From Flavobacterium luminosum (lineage in GTDB: Bacteria > Bacteroidota > Bacteroidia > Flavobacteriales > Flavobacteriaceae): DNA of 64,000 nucleotides. The notes under the pieces are model-generated. The model searched no databases. It saw nothing but the letters and a program-made list of their open reading frames with translations, and was not told the origin of the DNA. Both the position numbers and the translations under genes were made by a program. Every line of letters starts with the position of its first letter. Positions within the stretch are counted from its first letter, which is position 1. The stretch lies in assembly GCF_023635005.1 (NCBI RefSeq), contig NZ_JAMLJM010000001.1:496001-560000 (forward strand), in the 5' to 3' direction. Below are positions 52,962-60,835 of this stretch, piece by piece.

Positions 52962-55900
52962 TTACAAATGTACTACTTCTAGATTTTTACCTATATACAA
53001 AAGCGTTTTTTTCTGCACGTTATAACCCATTTCTTCCAAAACCTTTTCATATTGTTCAAGCTGTTTGGCGTATTTATCCTGATGCGTTCCTGTTTTATAA
53101 TCTAACAAATAGGCATTTTTCCCCTGAATCACTACTCGATCCGGAACCATGGTTTTTGCATTTGGTTTTAAAATACTGCGTTCATTAAAAACCTGATTCT
53201 CTTTAGCGAAAAAATCGGTCAACTCGGGATGTACAACAATCTCATTCAACGTTTTTTCAATAGTTTCTTTTTGTTGTTCCGATATCAATCCGTTTTCCAA
53301 AGCTTTAAGAACCGAAAGACCAACATCTTCTTTCACTGTAATAAAAGACAAAATCTCATGCATTACATTTCCAAACGCAATGGCTTCCTGTTGTTGTGTT
53401 CCCCACATTAAGGCTTCGCGTTGGGCAATTTTAATAGCTTCGGGTTTGATAACCGCTGTTACCGTTTTAATTTTTTCAATATTTTTAGTCGTTGTTTCTT
53501 TCACTGAAACTTTTTCCGGAGAACCAAATTCATAACTCATTTTATTTGGCTCATTGTCGACTCTATCTTCTACAAATTCTATAAAATAAGAAGCTAAATT
53601 ATTAGGCAACATTCCATCTTTATTGCGATCCTTAGCTCTAGTAATGATATATAGCTGTTCTTCGGCTCTAGTTAAAGCCACATACAAAACATTAATATTG
53701 TCTAATAAATCCTCTTGTGCTTTTTGCTGATAAACTTGAGCCGCTTTCTCACCAAATTTTTGCACCTCTTTATTTTTAGCCACCAATGCTTTAGGTATAC
53801 CTAATTCCTCTTCATTACCTTCAATCCAAAGTTTTTCTCCTTTATTTCTACTAAAATCTTCTTCAGCAAAAGGAAAAATAACTACTGGGAATTCTAATCC
53901 TTTGGATTTATGAATAGTCATGATTCGGATGGCATTAGCTCCTTCCGCTGATGGCACACTGAGTTTACTTCCGCTCTTTTGCCAATATTCTAAGAAATCG
54001 GCAATACTCAACTGATATTTTACATCGCGCTCCAGAACCACATCTAAGAAAAACTGAACGTATGCGTTATTCTTCTCACTCGAAATTGCTTTTAAAATTA
54101 AAGTCTCCGCAATTTCATACAACGATTTTCTTCGTATCGTACTCAACGGTATTTCGATTCCCTGCTGGTAAAGCCATTCCTGTAACTGGATTTCTTTTTG
54201 AAATTGAATTCCCTGATTAATAAAGTCATGAACCGGTAACGTTATAGGGAAATTTTGCGCCAAATAATACAAACTATGCGCTAGTGATTCTTTGTCTTTT
54301 TTATCATTTAGATACCGTAGCATGTTTAAAAAAAACTGCACTTCTGAAGAAGAATCCAACAACAAACTTTCCGAAGAAATAACCGGATAATGATGTTCCG
54401 TTAGATAATTCGCCAATAAAACACCATGTTTATTACTTCGGGTAAGCAAAACAATATTGTGGAGTTCAAAACCTTTTGTTTGTATCGACTGAATTGTCTC
54501 CAATGTTTTTTGCAAGTACAAATCATCTTGGGTTAGCTCTTCTTCTGTCGATTCCTTTTCCAGTTTTGGAAGGAACGTGATATTAACATAACCTCCTTGT
54601 TTCGCATTCGACTTTTGAAAACTATTATTTAGATATAATTCTTTGTAGTCTTCGTTTTCGAATTTTTCAGCTAAAAAACGAAAGAATTCATTATTAAAAT
54701 TGATCACCTCATCATAACTGCGGTAATTGATTTCAAGATGAATAACTTTTTTATCTTTATTACTAAACGGATTGCTATTTTTAGATAACTCGATAAACTG
54801 CTCTGCTTTCCCTCCACGCCAACGATAAATGGATTGTTTAGGATCGCCTACAATTAAAAGTGAGCCTCTATTTCCCTGTAAGTCTTCACTAGACAACGCA
54901 TTGTCTATTAACGGAATCAAATTTTGCCACTGCATCTGAGACGTATCCTGAAATTCGTCTATAAAAAAATGCTTATACCGTTCACCTAAACGTTCGTAGA
55001 TGAATGGAGCTGGTTGGTTTTGAATCTGTTCATTGATGAGTTTATTGAACTCTGAAATCGACAAAATACTCTGCTCTTCCTGAATTTTTGTCAATTGATT
55101 GCTCACTGTATTGAGCAAAAACAAAGGGGTGATATTTTTTAGAAAAGCTTCATAAAAATGCTTTTTTTCGAATTTTTGATATATCACATCCAGTGCAGAC
55201 AACAATTGCGGGACTAAAGTTTCTATCTGAGGTTTATCCTTTGCCGTTTTATTGATCTTAATATCATCCGGTTCGTGATAGGTTTTGTTTTTAGGATTGA
55301 ATTTTCTTTCTTGGATTCCTTTTAAATGATTAGGAAAATGTCCTGCGGAAAAAGATTTCAAATCAATTCCTTGAGATTCTAAAAGGTTCAATGTCTGTGT
55401 GGCCAAATCAGAAGTTTCATCGTCTATTTGGTTACACAACTCCGTAAGATTTTGTTTGAGCGCAACAAATTCTGGAATCTGCTTGTCTTTTAAGGATAAC
55501 ACTTCTTCCCGATAATTCTCATTCAAAATAAGTTTCCCGGTGGTAAAAATATCATTGGAAACATCCCAAGATTTATCATCATCGGTTTTTTCCATGGTAA
55601 AATCAACTAAAAGTTTGGTTAAAACCTCGTCTTCACCAGCTTGAGCAACAATAGCATCTACAGCTTCTTGCAACAAATTTTCGGTATCTAACGACACATC
55701 AAAATTGATCGGTAAATCCAAATCATGAGCAAAAGAACGAATCACTTTGTGGGTGAACTTGTCGATAGTAGAAATATCGAAAGCCGCATAATTATGAATA
55801 ATGTTTTTAATAATTGCTTTTGCCTTCTCGATTATTTTATGCTGATCCAAACCCGTTTCAGTAGCAATATCCCTCATTAATACTATCGACTTCTCAGAAG

Positions 55901-56108
55901 GATTCTCTTTTGTAAAATCAAAAAGACTATCTACAATTCGGCTTTTCATCTCATGAACCGCTTTATTCGTAAAAGTTATGGCTAAGATGTTTTTGTAAGC
56001 ATCGTCTTTTTTTGCTGTTAGAATAATCTTTAAATATTCTTTTACAAGTGTATAAGTTTTACCAGAACCAGCGGATGCGTTATATATGGAAAATGCGGAT
56101 TTTTGCAC
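52962..56108 (-). CDS. AddA/RecB-like UvrD-family helicase-nuclease, GTG start
   Basis: 1048 residues from GTG 56108, which gives the family's usual beginning and avoids overlap with the previous gene. Walker A is ASAGSGKT near residue 11. Motif II is FIDEFQDTS, and further helicase motifs include LIVGDPKQSIYRWRGG and MTIHKSKGLEFPVVIFPF. A C-terminal nuclease domain carries YLLDYKTGTH. It unwinds and trims double-strand ends with the AddB-like partner encoded downstream. It starts 13 bases after the metallopeptidase stop, suggesting cotranscription. Confidence 0.88.
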   Translation of the reverse strand: MQKSAFSIYNASAGSGKTYTLVKEYLKIILTAKKDDAYKNILAITFTNKAVHEMKSRIVDSLFDFTKENPSEKSIVLMRDIATETGLDQHKIIEKAKAIIKNIIHNYAAFDISTIDKFTHKVIRSFAHDLDLPINFDVSLDTENLLQEAVDAIVAQAGEDEVLTKLLVDFTMEKTDDDKSWDVSNDIFTTGKLILNENYREEVLSLKDKQIPEFVALKQNLTELCNQIDDETSDLATQTLNLLESQGIDLKSFSAGHFPNHLKGIQERKFNPKNKTYHEPDDIKINKTAKDKPQIETLVPQLLSALDVIYQKFEKKHFYEAFLKNITPLFLLNTVSNQLTKIQEEQSILSISEFNKLINEQIQNQPAPFIYERLGERYKHFFIDEFQDTSQMQWQNLIPLIDNALSSEDLQGNRGSLLIVGDPKQSIYRWRGGKAEQFIELSKNSNPFSNKDKKVIHLEINYRSYDEVINFNNEFFRFLAEKFENEDYKELYLNNSFQKSNAKQGGYVNITFLPKLEKESTEEELTQDDLYLQKTLETIQSIQTKGFELHNIVLLTRSNKHGVLLANYLTEHHYPVISSESLLLDSSSEVQFFLNMLRYLNDKKDKESLAHSLYYLAQNFPITLPVHDFINQGIQFQKEIQLQEWLYQQGIEIPLSTIRRKSLYEIAETLILKAISSEKNNAYVQFFLDVVLERDVKYQLSIADFLEYWQKSGSKLSVPSAEGANAIRIMTIHKSKGLEFPVVIFPFAEEDFSRNKGEKLWIEGNEEELGIPKALVAKNKEVQKFGEKAAQVYQQKAQEDLLDNINVLYVALTRAEEQLYIITRAKDRNKDGMLPNNLASYFIEFVEDRVDNEPNKMSYEFGSPEKVSVKETTTKNIEKIKTVTAVIKPEAIKIAQREALMWGTQQQEAIAFGNVMHEILSFITVKEDVGLSVLKALENGLISEQQKETIEKTLNEIVVHPELTDFFAKENQVFNERSILKPNAKTMVPDRVVIQGKNAYLLDYKTGTHQDKYAKQLEQYEKVLEEMGYNVQKKTLLYIGKNLEVVHL

Positions 56109-56121
56109 TACTCTGAAATAT

Positions 56122-57546
56122 TTAAAATTGTAAAGGCTGTTTGATATCAAAAAAAACTTGACGCTTCATTTTCGATAATTCTGATGGAAGTTCAGAAATG
56201 TCTTTTAAAACCAACACAATAATAGCCCTTCCTTTAATATCGAAAAAACTTAAATTCATGGATGCATTTTTGTACTTATAACTTCCAACCAATGGAAAGT
56301 ATTCTTTCAAAACATCCAACGTTTCCTGTTGGTTGTTGTGAATAATGAAAAGTTGAGTCTCAGGCGAATTATTAATTGATTCTATACTATACGGATGAAA
56401 AATTGGACTAGAAAGATTCAAGGTATATATTTGAAAATTCTCACTTACGGCTTCTAATATTTCTCTTTCTTTAAGATCATTGGCATACACCACCGTTTTG
56501 TTGAATAAAATGGTATAATCTTGAATTGCCTTAGGAAAATTTGCAGCAAAAGTTTTCACGGAATGAGTCAAAAATTCCTTATCAATCGACTTGTTCTTTT
56601 CGATGTAACTTTCAACTTTCGGGTAAATTAATTTTGCGAATTTATTAATGGTTGCATCGGCATACCACTCGCGATCATCTAACTTATGATTGACTGTTTT
56701 ATATGCCCATCCGTTGCCAATTGCTGTGGCTAGAGCTTCGTCGAGATAAGAATAGGCGAATTTGGAATAAAGTGTATTGTTTTCTTTAAAATGATTTTCA
56801 ATCTCAAACTGTTTTTTTATTTTTTGCTCTTTGTAAAGAACGTGACACATTTCATGAAGCACAACACCGTTTTTCGAATTGTAATCAGTTTCATCTGAGA
56901 AAATAGCCACACATAGATTATTCACATGAGGTGTAGCGGTTATAAAACCATTGGCGCCCGGAATAGGATACAACGCTACCTGAAAAGGGACATCGGCTGT
57001 CCAAGAAGAATCATAAAACTGTTTTATTCTATTAAAAATTTGAATATTCACATTTTCAAACTTCGATAGTTCTTGCAACTGTTTTTCTAGTTTCGGTTTA
57101 TTTTCGTTCCAAACCATTGTATCGTAATAGGATTCAATATTCCGAAGCAGTTGGATTAAATTCTGACTCGTTTCCAACGGAAGGAACCCCAAACAATTTA
57201 ATTTAAAGTCGGTTAAGTTTTTAGAATTCACTGCGCTCGCAACGACCAAATCATACGTTGAAACCCCATGATTTCTGGAAGTAGGGTAATCATCTCTAGA
57301 AACCGTGTAATATATATTGATTTTCTTGTACTCTTCGATTGCTTCTTTAAACTTTAAATCATTAGCAGGATGCTTTTCAATAAAATCTTTAAATGTACTC
57401 GAGGTACCATGCGATCCGGCTGCGGTTTGCATGAAATTTAACAAACAATACGGCTTACTTATTTTGTATTTGAAAAAAACTTGGGAATTCCCCAAGACAG
57501 AAATAAGAAGAAAAATTAAGAAACTTATTTGTTTTATTGAAAGCAT
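56122..57546 (-). CDS. Putative exported zinc metallopeptidase (gluzincin-type signature)
   Basis: 474 residues. A signal peptide (1-21, ISVLGNSQ) precedes a helical N-terminal half. The zinc motif HEMCH occurs in VVLHEMCHVLY (about residue 233), and a third ligand is offered by Glu in DEALATAIGNGW some 40 residues later, a gluzincin arrangement. I do not recognise a named family. The C-terminus is variable (FDIKGRAIIVLVLKDISELPSEL). It is the first gene of a possible operon with the AddA-like helicase; no functional link is obvious. The protein call is solid as an open frame with normal composition; the activity is inference. Confidence 0.65.
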   Translation of the reverse strand: MLSIKQISFLIFLLISVLGNSQVFFKYKISKPYCLLNFMQTAAGSHGTSSTFKDFIEKHPANDLKFKEAIEEYKKINIYYTVSRDDYPTSRNHGVSTYDLVVASAVNSKNLTDFKLNCLGFLPLETSQNLIQLLRNIESYYDTMVWNENKPKLEKQLQELSKFENVNIQIFNRIKQFYDSSWTADVPFQVALYPIPGANGFITATPHVNNLCVAIFSDETDYNSKNGVVLHEMCHVLYKEQKIKKQFEIENHFKENNTLYSKFAYSYLDEALATAIGNGWAYKTVNHKLDDREWYADATINKFAKLIYPKVESYIEKNKSIDKEFLTHSVKTFAANFPKAIQDYTILFNKTVVYANDLKEREILEAVSENFQIYTLNLSSPIFHPYSIESINNSPETQLFIIHNNQQETLDVLKEYFPLVGSYKYKNASMNLSFFDIKGRAIIVLVLKDISELPSELSKMKRQVFFDIKQPLQF

Positions 57547-57679: not shown

Positions 57680-58285
57680 ATGGCTTTTGAGTTACCACAA
57701 TTACCTTATGCATACGATGCACTAGAACCACATATTGATGCCAGAACTATGGAAATTCACCATACAAAACATCACAATGCATATACTACCAACTTAAATG
57801 CTGCCATTGCAGGTACTGATTTAGAAGGAAAATCTATTGAAGAAATCCTTAAAAACCTAGATATGAGCAAAGCAGCAATCAGAAATAATGGTGGAGGTTT
57901 TTATAACCACAATTTATTTTGGACTGTTATGTCTCCTAATGGTGGCGGTGAACCTACAGGTGAATTAGTTGAAGCAATTCGTTCTGCTTTTGGAAGTTTT
58001 GAAGAATTTAAAAATGTTTTTTCAAAAGCAGGAATTTCTCAATTTGGTTCTGGATGGGCTTGGTTGTGTGTTAAAGACGGAAAATTAGAAGTTTGCGGAA
58101 CTCCTAATCAGGATAATACACTAATGCCAGGTGTAGGCTGTGGAGGAACACCTATCTTAGGAATGGATGTTTGGGAACATGCTTATTATTTGCATTACCA
58201 AAACAGAAGACCTGATTATGTTGAGGCTTTCTTTAATGTAATTAACTGGGATGAAGTAGCTAGACGTTACGCTGAAGCGAAATAA
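57680..58285 (+). CDS. sod: Superoxide dismutase, Mn/Fe family
   Basis: 201 residues. Metal ligands are visible: His in [12 protein letters not shown], His in [11 protein letters not shown], and Asp and His in [19 protein letters not shown]. It converts superoxide to hydrogen peroxide and oxygen. Gln in [11 protein letters not shown] fits the Mn-type or cambialistic form more than the classic Fe-type, but metal use cannot be fixed by sequence. No signal peptide, so cytoplasmic. It is monocistronic with a strong terminator. Confidence 0.94.
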
Positions 58286-58303: not shown

Positions 58304-58343
58304 AAAAAAAGAGGCAATCTATTTTAAGATTGCCTCTTTTTTT
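58304..58343 (+). terminator. sod terminator
   Basis: AAAAAAAGAGGCAATCT pairs with AGATTGCCTCTTTTTTT (17 base pairs, loop ATTTTA). It separates sod from the small-RNA array. Confidence 0.92.
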
Positions 58344-58368
58344 GTTGTGAATTAATAGTTAACCTAAT

Positions 58369-58441
58369 AAAAAAGGTGGAGATTCACTTCCACCTTTTTT
58401 GCCCCAAATCTACCATAAACTTAACCTACTTGTGTAATGGT
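58369..58441 (-). ncRNA. Candidate small RNA, copy 1 of a tandem family
   Basis: Read on the minus strand, the unit begins ACCATTACACAAGTAGG, carries a conserved 41-base 5' part (58441-58401), and ends in a hairpin GGTGGAAGTG...CTCCACC with a T run (58400-58369). The 5' part can form a short ACCAT/ATGGT stem enclosing a 20-base loop. Promoter TTG-N20-TACATTTG lies 4 bases upstream. The unit matches copies 2 and 3 in all but one base of the 41-base block. No protein is encoded. I infer a stable, independently transcribed RNA; its target is unknown. Confidence 0.72.
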
Positions 58442-58445
58442 GAGT

Positions 58446-58476
58446 CAAATGTATTTTGAAATTATTTTATTCCCAA
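58446..58476 (-). promoter_or_regulatory. Promoter of small RNA copy 1
   Basis: TTG (58476-58474), 20 bases, TACATTTG (58453-58446), then 4 bases to the conserved RNA start. Full consensus match. Confidence 0.7.
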
Positions 58477-58584
58477 AGAAAATCGTTAAAAAACCAATAA
58501 AATCGACAAGTTAATTTTGATACAATTATTTAATCATCAATAAATTATAATTTATCTATTTATCAATTGATTCTTTTGAAAAAT

Positions 58585-58658
58585 AAAAAAGGCAGAAGTG
58601 TTAGTTCCGCCTTTTTTGCCCCAAATCTACCATAAACTTAACCTACTTATGTAATGGT
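58585..58658 (-). ncRNA. Candidate small RNA, copy 2 of a tandem family
   Basis: The unit has the same layout: conserved 41-base 5' block (58658-58618), then the terminator hairpin GGCGGAA-CTAACAC-TTCTGCC with an A run before and a T run after (58617-58585). In the stem, G-U replaces the A-U or C-G seen in the other copies, keeping the pairing. Transcription is expected to begin within a few bases of 58660. Confidence 0.72.
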
Positions 58659-58662
58659 ACAG

Positions 58663-58693
58663 TAAAAGTATGTGACTTGTAATTGAAATTCAA
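58663..58693 (-). promoter_or_regulatory. Promoter of small RNA copy 2
   Basis: TTG (58693-58691), 20 bases, TACTTTTA (58670-58663), then 4 bases to the conserved RNA start. Confidence 0.65.
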
Positions 58694-58786
58694 AATTTAT
58701 CGATGAATTGTGTAAAAAATCGTTAAAAAGGTATCGCATCATTAATTTTAATGAGATAATCTACCGAATAAGAATTTCGTATAAAT

Positions 58787-58860
58787 AAAAAAGGCAGAAG
58801 TGTTAGTTCTACCTTTTTTGCCCCAAATCTACCATAAACTTAACCTACTTATGTAATGGT
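58787..58860 (-). ncRNA. Candidate small RNA, copy 3 of a tandem family
   Basis: Conserved 41-base block at 58860-58820, identical to copy 2, and terminator hairpin GGTAGAA-CTAACAC-TTCTGCC (58819-58787). The stem differs from copy 2 at two bases and remains paired through U-G and A-U. This copy lies 76 bases downstream of the purF stop on the same strand, so its hairpin would also end purF readthrough transcripts. Confidence 0.72.
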
Positions 58861-58864
58861 GGGA

Positions 58865-58895
58865 TAAAGGTAAAATTATATAATAATGTCTTCAA
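58865..58895 (-). promoter_or_regulatory. Promoter of small RNA copy 3
   Basis: TTG (58895-58893), 20 bases, TACCTTTA (58872-58865), then 4 bases to the conserved RNA start. It lies in the purF 3' flank. Confidence 0.62.
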
Positions 58896-58936
58896 ACTTA
58901 ATCGGTGAATAGTCAATAAAGTCGATTAACGGCATT

Positions 58937-60835
58937 TTAATACGCTCGAGCATCCTTTCCTTCGTAGAAATTCATAAAAGCTCGATTCACTACCCGATTA
59001 CCTCCCGCGGTAGGGTAATTACCTGTAAAATACCAGTCTCCTAGGTTTTTAGGACAAGCTTTATGTAAATTCTCAACACTTTGGAAAATGATTTTCACTT
59101 CAGCTTTCACCGAAGGCTCCGTTAACATTTCTGCAATTTTATCCGAAATCTGTTCGTCTGTAAATTGTGCATACAACTCATTTACGTAATTCACTATTTC
59201 AGAATCGCTATAATGTTCTTGTGCTTTACATTTCGCATAAACTTCATCGACCAAATGATACTTATTAGTATCTTTTAACAATTCTAACATCGCTTGAAAG
59301 GCAACTAAGGTCTCGAGTTTTGCCATGTCGATTCCGTAACAATCAGGGTAACGAATTTGTGGTGCCGACGAGACTATAATGATTTTTTTAGGATTCAAAC
59401 GATCCATCATTTTAATGATACTTTTCTTTAAAGTAGTTCCACGAACAATACTATCATCGATGATCACCAAGTTATCAGTAGGTTTAATCACACCATAGGT
59501 TACATCATAAACATGTGCCACCATATCGTCACGTGAACTATCTTCGGTAATAAACGTACGTAGTTTTACATCTTTAATAGCAATTTTTTCGGAACGTAAC
59601 TTCACAGACAAAATCTCCTGTAATTTCTCGGCTGATAAGTTCTCTTTATTCTGTAAAATTTCAGCTATTTTTCTTTGATTCAAAAAATCATTAGCCGCTT
59701 CAATCATACCAAAAAAGGAAGTTTCCGCAGTATTTGGGATATACGAAAAAACGGTATTGTCTGTATCATTATCTACTGCTTTTAGCACTTCAGGCATGAT
59801 TAGTTTACCCAATTCTTTTCGCTCTTGATAAATTTCGGCATCACTACCGCGAGAAAAATAAATACGCTCAAAAGAACAAGCTTTTTTTATGGAAGCTTCG
59901 CGTACTTTTTCGTCTAAAACCGTTCCATTTTTTTTAATGATTAACGCATGACCCGGAGTTATTTCCTTAATCTGATCAAAAGGCACGTTGAATACCGTTT
60001 GAATCACTGGTCGTTCTGATGCCACTACTACAATTTCATCATCCTGATAGTAATAAGCTGGTCGGATTCCTGCCGGATCTCGTGTCACGAAAGCATCACC
60101 ATGACCAATTAATCCGGCCATTGCGTAACCTCCGTCCCAATTTTTAGAAGCTCTTTTTAAAATACGAGCCACATCTAATCGTTCAGCTATCACTGCTGAG
60201 GCCTCTTGTTTAGAAAACCCTTCGTTTTTGCATTGTTGGTATAAATCGGTTACTTCATCATCTAAGAAATGACCAATTTTTTCCATTACTGTAACAGTAT
60301 CTGCCATTTGTTTCGGATGTTGTCCTAGACGAACTAAATCATCGAACAACTCTTTAACATTGGTCATATTAAAATTTCCTGCTACAATTAAGTTGCGGTG
60401 CATCCAATTATTTTGACGTAAGAAAGGGTGTACGTTTTCAATACTATTTTTACCAAAAGTACCATAGCGCACATGACCCAAAAAAACTTCTCCCACATAA
60501 GGGATATGCTCTTTTTGTAAAGCTACATCCTCACGATATTCAGGATGTTGAACTAACTCTTCATTGATTCTAGTGTTAATCTGGCTGAAAATATCCTGAA
60601 TAGGTTGTGCATGATTGGAACGGATTCTACTTATATACCGTTGACCAGGTTTTACGTCTAATTTGATACTAGCCAATCCAGCACCATCTTGACCTCTGTT
60701 GTGTTGCTTTTCCAGCAACAGATACATTTTTTCTACGCCATAAAAAGCCGTACCGTACTTTTGTTTATAATAATCTAAAGGTTTTTTTAACCTTAAAAGT
60801 GCAATACCACACTCGTGTTTAATTGCGTCGCTCAT
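58937..60835 (-). CDS. purF: Amidophosphoribosyltransferase
   Basis: 632 residues, longer than the roughly 500 of the Bacillus and E. coli enzymes. The N-terminal nucleophile is Cys9 in KHECGIALL; the eight residues before it would be a propeptide. The glutaminase domain contains HVRYGTFG, and the phosphoribosyltransferase loop reads VIIDDSIVRGTTLKK near residue 465. It makes phosphoribosylamine from PRPP and glutamine, the first committed step of purine synthesis. The leader is rich in CAA-type repeats. A PfkB-kinase terminator separates it from the upstream gene. The small-RNA array follows it. Confidence 0.92.
   Translation of the reverse strand: MSDAIKHECGIALLRLKKPLDYYKQKYGTAFYGVEKMYLLLEKQHNRGQDGAGLASIKLDVKPGQRYISRIRSNHAQPIQDIFSQINTRINEELVQHPEYREDVALQKEHIPYVGEVFLGHVRYGTFGKNSIENVHPFLRQNNWMHRNLIVAGNFNMTNVKELFDDLVRLGQHPKQMADTVTVMEKIGHFLDDEVTDLYQQCKNEGFSKQEASAVIAERLDVARILKRASKNWDGGYAMAGLIGHGDAFVTRDPAGIRPAYYYQDDEIVVVASERPVIQTVFNVPFDQIKEITPGHALIIKKNGTVLDEKVREASIKKACSFERIYFSRGSDAEIYQERKELGKLIMPEVLKAVDNDTDNTVFSYIPNTAETSFFGMIEAANDFLNQRKIAEILQNKENLSAEKLQEILSVKLRSEKIAIKDVKLRTFITEDSSRDDMVAHVYDVTYGVIKPTDNLVIIDDSIVRGTTLKKSIIKMMDRLNPKKIIIVSSAPQIRYPDCYGIDMAKLETLVAFQAMLELLKDTNKYHLVDEVYAKCKAQEHYSDSEIVNYVNELYAQFTDEQISDKIAEMLTEPSVKAEVKIIFQSVENLHKACPKNLGDWYFTGNYPTAGGNRVVNRAFMNFYEGKDARAY

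Follow-up and report, generated by a model that had tools for sequence, protein, structure and literature searches.

A tandem family of predicted small RNA genes between purF and sod in Flavobacteriaceae, complementary to the start regions of CAP-domain lipoprotein genes

The stretch of Flavobacterium luminosum DNA analysed here (64,000 nucleotides, hereafter the window) contains, in the gap between sod and purF, three direct copies of a short unit on the minus strand, with start-to-start spacings of 217 and 202 nt. Sequence inspection confirmed, at the coordinates given in the initial annotation, the geometry which it had described: each unit consists of a TTG, exactly 20 nt, a TAnnTTTR motif (TACCTTTA, TACTTTTA and TACATTTG in units 1, 2 and 3, respectively), exactly 4 nt, a 41-nt block and a terminator whose stem is preceded by an A run and followed by a T run. 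The sole difference between the three blocks is at base 10, which is a C in the third unit. A second promoter box, at -49 to -43, was present in all three units and goes beyond that first description. At E ≤ 0.001 the genome carries these three copies of the predicted small RNA (sRNA) gene and none besides. Beyond sod, at window positions 52962-56150, lies a gene that resembles RecB/UvrD by eye, and such a gene was also seen in L228, L233, L235, L237 and L240. Since it stands beyond sod in several genera, the conserved block can be written as purF, the sRNAs, sod and the RecB/UvrD-like gene.

Table 1. Position of the predicted sRNA genes, their parts and their neighbours in the window.
Feature	Position	Strand	Remarks
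sRNA gene 1 (purF-proximal)	58787..58860	-	predicted RNA of 74 nt; 41-nt block and predicted +1 at 58860 (family alignment)
sRNA gene 2	58585..58658	-	predicted RNA of 74 nt; 41-nt block and predicted +1 at 58658 (sequence)
sRNA gene 3 (sod-proximal)	58369..58441	-	predicted RNA of 73 nt; 41-nt block and predicted +1 at 58441 (sequence)
Promoter, gene 1	58865..58895	-	TTG (58895-58893), 20 nt, TACCTTTA (58872-58865); motif position conserved in the family
Promoter, gene 2	58663..58693	-	TTG (58693-58691), 20 nt, TACTTTTA
Promoter, gene 3	58446..58476	-	TTG (58476-58474), 20 nt, TACATTTG
Upstream box, gene 1	58903..58909	-	TTCACCG at -49 to -43; putative regulator site
Upstream box, gene 2	58701..58707	-	TTCATCG at -49 to -43
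Upstream box, gene 3	58484..58490	-	TTTAACG at -49 to -43
5' hairpin region, RNA 1 (bases 1-30)	58831..58860	-	predicted from pairing, compensatory changes and folds of other RNAs (RNA 1 itself not folded)
5' hairpin region, RNA 2 (same bases)	58658-58629	-	
5' hairpin region, RNA 3 (same bases)	58441-58412	-	
Open linker AGATTTGGGGC, RNA 1	58820..58830	-	putative seed; pairs at 10-11 of 11 bases with target leaders
Open linker, RNA 2	58628-58618	-	
Open linker, RNA 3	58411-58401	-	
Terminator, RNA 1	58787..58819	-	A run, stem, T run
Terminator, RNA 2	58617-58585	-	same layout
Terminator, RNA 3	58400-58369	-	same layout
purF	58937..60835	-	upstream neighbour, family-wide
sod	57680..58285	+	Fe/Mn type by eye; convergent downstream neighbour, family-wide
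Inverted repeat and T run 3' of sod	58306..58344	+	likely terminator of sod itself, by eye

The positions of the motifs recur over 282 distinct homologous units, showing that the element is not due to chance. In the family alignment the predicted transcription start, the A of ACCAT, was found in 97% of these units, and the promoter frequencies upstream of it were 92% for T-12, 92% for A-11, 97% for T-8, 98% for T-7, 69% for T-6 and 68% for G-5. TA..TT occupied positions -12 to -7 in 260 of the 282 units and TAnnTTT was present in 188, while at 45 other offsets this latter motif was encountered in 2.5 units on average and in 18 at most; TTG stood exactly 20 nt before the TA in 84 units. The housekeeping motif of Flavobacterium psychrophilum is given with TAnnTTTG at this same position, -12 to -5 (PMC9723704). 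A predicted hairpin of -6 kcal/mol or lower ending in at least four T residues was found in 281/282 units. The -49 box is marked by T-49 (92%), T-48 (80%) and C-44 (70%) and, in a loose form, was present in 76/93 first, 49/59 middle, 52/93 last and 13/14 single copies; we regard it as a putative regulator site. With their own promoter, an intrinsic terminator and no coding frame, the units look like sRNA genes, and the sequences support the earlier proposals of three independent RNA genes, here predicted to give RNAs of 73-74 nt, and of membership in a multicopy family whose 5' region is constant. The suggestion that this family might correspond to Flavo-1 was not borne out, as neither Flavo-1 nor any other Rfam family matched it at cut-off: at gathering score the window gave two tRNAs and nothing else, and the 60 matches obtained at the sRNA locus up to E = 10 all fell below the cut-off of their families, at chance level.

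When unit 2 was used as a blastn query, the element was recovered in its own genome, in 27 of 36 genomes of the same genus and in 0 of 23 genomes from other families of the order; matches in G024 and G033 were rejected, the terminator stems alone being similar. A pattern scan of named genomes yielded at least 119 loci, 80 of them named. Among the loci listed, the genera were Flavobacterium, Winogradskyella, Algibacter, Xanthomarina, Psychroserpens, Lacinutrix, Tamlana, Mangrovimonas, Gelidibacter, Hanstruepera, Gaetbulibacter, Mariniflexile, Aquaticitalea and others, a few loci coming from metagenome bins with other labels such as 'Lentimicrobium' (L077). A covariance model of the 46-nt core built from 32 sequences (R1) matched 202 of the 249 Flavobacteriaceae genomes sampled, corresponding to 192 of 235 genera. 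For 198 of these 202 genomes the match was at E<1e-8, and the best E values of the other four were 1.7e-6, 3.3e-6, 3.6e-6 and 9.2e-4. Outside the family, R1 gave four matches in 247 genomes of the class and five in 296 genomes of the order (E 0.002-0.009), which is chance level; three of them were inspected, L216 and L217 lying inside coding sequence and L441 being intergenic, and L218, L219, L442, G553, G591 and G753 were left out. Neither the element nor CAP homologues (see below) were found in viral contigs.

Twelve R1-negative genomes of the family were read by eye over 900 nt after purF and contained no array there; three of them keep sod beside purF. Downstream of purF in L249 we noticed TTATGGTAGATTTGAG without promoter or terminator, a possible relic of a lost sRNA copy. 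The purF-sod gap of L242 has no array; in its first 60 bases on the purF side it holds an inverted repeat (AATCCCCAAATCAA/TTGATTTGGGGATT) that includes both the linker sequence and the complement of the linker, which may be a relic or a coincidence.

The address of the array is highly conserved. Among 119 fetched loci, some of which are incomplete at their ends, purF was upstream on the same strand in 108 and sod downstream and convergent in 98; both genes were present in 94 and neither in seven. In the 107 complete arrays (of 133 loci), a tally which may include one false unit (L129), two copies were the most frequent arrangement (57 arrays), followed by three (18), one (14), four (14), five (3) and six (1). 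Six genomes with distant copies were inspected. Two proved to be rearrangements that part purF from sod (L229/L230 and L231/L232), each side retaining a copy, and four contain true extra loci (L227, L234, L236 and L238). The extra loci L227 and L238 adjoin genes which, by eye, resemble TonB-dependent receptors.

The location between convergent purF and sod could suggest that the repeats act only in cis, as terminators or spacers between these genes, or represent a DNA repeat element. We consider this highly improbable: the promoters are exactly spaced, the core is less variable than the terminators, copies persist where purF and sod have been separated as well as at the four other loci, and in the window a separate inverted repeat with a T run already stands 3' of sod.

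The copies of one array are not always equivalent in sequence. Eight arrays that belong to one deeper clade (L429-L436) have GGGGC in the first copy, GGGGA in 15/17 middle copies and GGGA(C/T) in the last copy. The last-copy form is also seen elsewhere, as the final copy of L044 and of L130 and as a middle copy of L079. Such position-specific forms indicate that one copy cannot simply stand in for another. In some lineages drift has affected the middle and sod-proximal copies, and both control and targets may vary from copy to copy.

Three parts are predicted in the RNA: a hairpin at the 5' end, a G-rich linker that stays open and the hairpin of the terminator. The initial annotation had regarded the constant part as largely single-stranded; a 7-bp hairpin with a few compensatory changes is predicted there instead, and the open part is restricted to the 11-nt linker. 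In the family alignment the arm ACCAUAA can pair with UUAUGGU in 91.6% of cells, part of the pairing set having been collected with a pattern in which one arm is almost invariant. Double changes were observed at three of the seven pairs in four cells (C-G to U-A three times and A-U to G-C once), and as many double-change pairs were obtained in 4/500 shuffles; further pair types were not in excess (239/500 shuffles). One slid version of the pairing displayed five double-change cells on two pairs. Covariation support for the 5' hairpin is modest. Best folds computed for five RNAs comprised the hairpin, the open linker AGAUUUGGGGC and the terminator in four cases, the 5' hairpin not being part of the best fold of window unit 3. 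The linker and the loop are the most constant parts of the family. Most cores also contain an in-frame AUG from which a short peptide (MVDLGQK...) might be made, an explanation to which we give practically no credence since the frames vary, the shortest having 5 codons and others continuing past the terminator without a stop, and the covarying stem of L099 removes the AUG.

Within genomes of the family R1 also produced ten weak hits (E 1.8e-5 to 0.0068), and all ten are antisense to a start codon. Seven belong to genes encoding CAP-domain lipoproteins that are predicted to be secreted, one to the gene of a 120-aa protein and two to genes of small proteins (42 and 41 aa, predicted); blastn added an eighth CAP site, in G021. 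PF00188 was detected in both CAP proteins tested (3.5e-11 and 3e-13), the lipoprotein character being assigned by eye, and a protein search gave 953 relatives of the CAP lipoprotein, the best 120 of which were examined. The leaders of ten out of ten CAP genes, identified by tblastn in the loci examined and distributed over eight Flavobacterium genomes, can pair with 34-40 of the 46 core bases; eight of these genes had been found via the site itself and two had not. A typical target leader is GTTTGCCCCACAATCTACTTTAAACTTAAACTACTACAATTATG. The predicted sRNA-leader duplexes contain 33-40 pairs, with energies of about -35 to -50 kcal/mol for the CAP genes. In these ten genes and in that of the 120-aa protein the AUG is complementary to bases 3-5 of the RNA, and in the CAP leaders the linker is matched at 10-11 of its 11 bases, with GCCCC located 35-38 nt before the AUG in all ten. 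When three leaders were folded alone, GCCCC fell within the loop of a small hairpin with AAAG/CUUU arms, a weak fold (z -0.7 to -1.2). The AAAG/CUUU arms are found in 10/10 CAP leaders, which would explain the poorer fit of the sRNA to that stretch.

Eleven target start regions reached -39.0 to -50.1 kcal/mol, a range attained by none of 939 control start regions (mean -15.9, best -30.8 kcal/mol) taken from the loci examined, including regions fetched for a seed match. In a prediction test, 400 kb of a G007 contig was scanned, the place of the CAP gene not being known beforehand, and this gene (L516) ranked first of 1502 start regions (-35.3, the next being -31.0). The second CAP gene of G021, within the stretch fetched for the first, likewise has a site (-44.1). 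As judged from the control regions and the prediction test, complementarity to mRNAs encoded elsewhere exceeds chance. CAP genes also occur as neighbouring paralogues, each with an sRNA-complementary leader, in L448 (171-665 and 929-1423, minus strand) and in L437 (2570-3079 and 3522-4034, minus strand). The 120-aa protein (L439 2142-2504, minus strand), from the same genome as a CAP target, has a signal-like N-terminus and a weak DP-EP match below cut-off. The predicted 42- and 41-aa proteins (L440 2337-2462, minus strand, and L447 1471-1593, plus strand), whose leaders are also complementary to the sRNA, come from two genera outside Flavobacterium, resemble each other (33% over 42 aa), share an LPEP motif and had no Pfam hit.

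The complementarity spans almost the whole core, which is more than usual for a trans-acting sRNA, and one might thus imagine that the CAP leaders carry either a decayed copy of the element in inverted orientation or a cis-antisense gene, the likeness being due to descent and not to regulation. We hold this to be very unlikely, as the leader pattern is common to orthologues of eight genomes and includes leader-specific features (ACA for AA, AAAG/CUUU arms), the opposite strand carries no terminator in the stretches read, and in the 120-aa gene and the small genes of other genera the complementary stretch is placed at the AUG in the same way.

CAP sites at E ≤ 0.01 were present in 6/24 array-bearing Flavobacterium genomes and small-gene sites in 2/16 array-bearing genomes of other genera, counts which are lower bounds because R1 misses the G007 site. 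The genome of F. luminosum itself yielded no CAP gene (none at E ≤ 1 by tblastn) and R1 finds the array alone in it; 1.264 of its 2.647 Mb (48%), scanned by counting every frame of at least 40 codons, contained no outstanding start region (best -32.0 of 2942 and -30.1 of 1357). The conservation of the core across the family suggests that there are targets beyond those found, since the known ones do not yet explain it.

Searches based on the seed alone gave no conserved target. In the own genome a 15-mer with up to 3 mismatches had 195 hits, compared with 127 in the reversed control, and the seed sites by the ATG of a uvrA-like and a lipoprotein-like gene resembled promoters and were discarded. 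A search for CCCCAAATC-N0-22-ATG was carried out in 37 genomes, with 60 places read among the matches listed, the first 20 being chosen by eye, which biases the proportion of leader sites among them. Two candidates were rejected: an M28 peptidase, for which the exact CCCCAAAT occurred in just 3/21 orthologue leaders, and an outer-membrane protein, for which CCCCAAAT was found in the own genome only (1/17 readable leaders of 30 loci).

The search for protein partners covered Hfq (PF17209) and RRM_1. No Hfq was detected in the 249 genomes of the family, the own genome included, 5 of 14 controls being positive. RRM_1 was found in 10/249, six of which carry the sRNA, and 196 of the 202 sRNA-bearing genomes had no RRM_1 hit. 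F. luminosum is among the ten, with its gene at G000:C1:489749-489958, 6 kb before the window. Given this rarity, an RbpB-type partner is no family-wide need. CsrB and RsmY are RNA decoys for an RNA-binding protein, and the sRNA could similarly sequester a protein through its hairpin loop and GGGG linker, with copies raising the capacity and the CAP leaders being incidental. The multicopy array, the hairpin with its compensatory changes and a core kept in 192 genera with targets known in few would fit such a role. We nevertheless find it a rather unlikely one, considering that the weak R1 hits in the family are antisense to start codons without exception, that the blind prediction in G007 held and that RRM_1 is rare.

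We consider it likely that the sRNA is an Hfq-free antisense repressor, whose core would pair with the leader and start codon of CAP genes in related species and would thereby block translation. Transcription of each copy would start from a separate housekeeping-type promoter, with a regulator at the -49 box probably adjusting its activity, and several copies would raise the dose of sRNA. The linker AGAUUUGGGGC would first contact GCCCCAC(A)AUCU, predicted to lie in the loop of the small leader hairpin. After opening of the hairpin in the sRNA, the duplex would lengthen to about 40 nt and reach the AUG, whose partner would be the CAU that forms bases 3-5 of the RNA.

Pairing alone is compatible with either sign of the effect. 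The same leaders could be paired with the opposite outcome, opening of the leader hairpin or shielding of the mRNA resulting in a rise of the CAP lipoproteins, and two protease mRNAs of Flavobacterium reach their full levels only with the sRNA Rfp18 (PMC9723704). Activation or stabilisation appears unlikely to us, however, because the start codon lies inside the duplex in 10/10 CAP duplexes, which should bar initiation, and because the weak leader folds offer little to open. We regard as evenly balanced a broader proposal, namely that this is a family-defining riboregulator of Flavobacteriaceae, encoded by the purF-sod array, independent of Hfq and RRM chaperones, acting by contact of a G-rich linker with a C-rich loop and by an AUG duplex of about 40 nt, and whose array positions have diverged as subtypes, each with a promoter and targets of its own, CAP genes being the first of these targets.

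Several known systems share part of this organisation. LhrC1-5 of Listeria monocytogenes are tandem multicopy sRNAs with their own promoters that pair near start codons, using C/U-rich motifs on G-rich sites, whereas here a G-rich linker would face a C-rich leader. No model of the LhrC family, which we take to be included in Rfam, was among the Rfam matches at the locus. PrrF1/PrrF2 of Pseudomonas are tandem duplicated sRNAs kept as a pair, under iron control and working with Hfq; unlike them, the present RNAs belong to bacteria in which Hfq was absent from all Flavobacteriaceae genomes sampled (0/249).

Closer parallels are found in Bacteroides thetaiotaomicron, where FopS and GibS (PMC11697453, PMC7366714) are described as a multicopy Bacteroidota family with housekeeping promoters, without Hfq, that represses by pairing over the start-codon region of surface-protein mRNAs, as predicted here. 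FopS has 14 members, which are intergenic, antisense or 3'-UTR-derived, with a seed in an unstructured 5' end and binding by the RRM protein RbpB (PMC11697453). The purF-sod sRNA differs by its single tandem array, its 5' hairpin followed by a linker, its pairing of about 40 nt and the limited occurrence of RRM_1 (10/249), and the GibS covariance model scored 21.3 bits at the locus for a cut-off of 115. Dispersal of the FopS kind was not seen, the window containing one tandem array and extra loci being present in four of the six genomes inspected for extras. From its sequence features it would work like FopS yet is no member of that family, with no GibS match, another architecture, a tandem locus and no family-wide RRM protein.

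Rfp18 of F. psychrophilum (PMC9723704) is comparable as a genus-conserved Flavobacterium sRNA acting on mRNAs of exported proteins; by its description it pairs through a third stem-loop and has metalloprotease and adhesin targets, whereas two hairpins and CAP targets are predicted here. This comparison is with the published description, and the two RNAs may be one and the same. Flavo-1 (RF01705, PMC2864571) is, like our RNA, a candidate trans-acting RNA of Bacteroidetes. At gathering score it was not detected anywhere in the window, and it was likewise absent from the matches obtained at the locus up to E = 10. Candidate sRNAs of F. columnare have been reported from RNA-seq, without names in the text (PMC5395568), and transcripts of the present kind may be among them. 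No description of the present family was found in the full texts of one open-licence library, supplements excepted, and a published table of candidates may already include it.

Few sRNAs have been studied in Flavobacteriaceae, large as this family is, and the sRNA described here offers a fixed address, countable copies and named candidate targets. It represents a predicted case of extended trans pairing across the AUG in bacteria lacking Hfq, and its array allows one to ask why cells keep several almost equal copies. The purF-sod sRNA is ordinary in kind and notable in its spread, its locus and the length of its predicted pairing.
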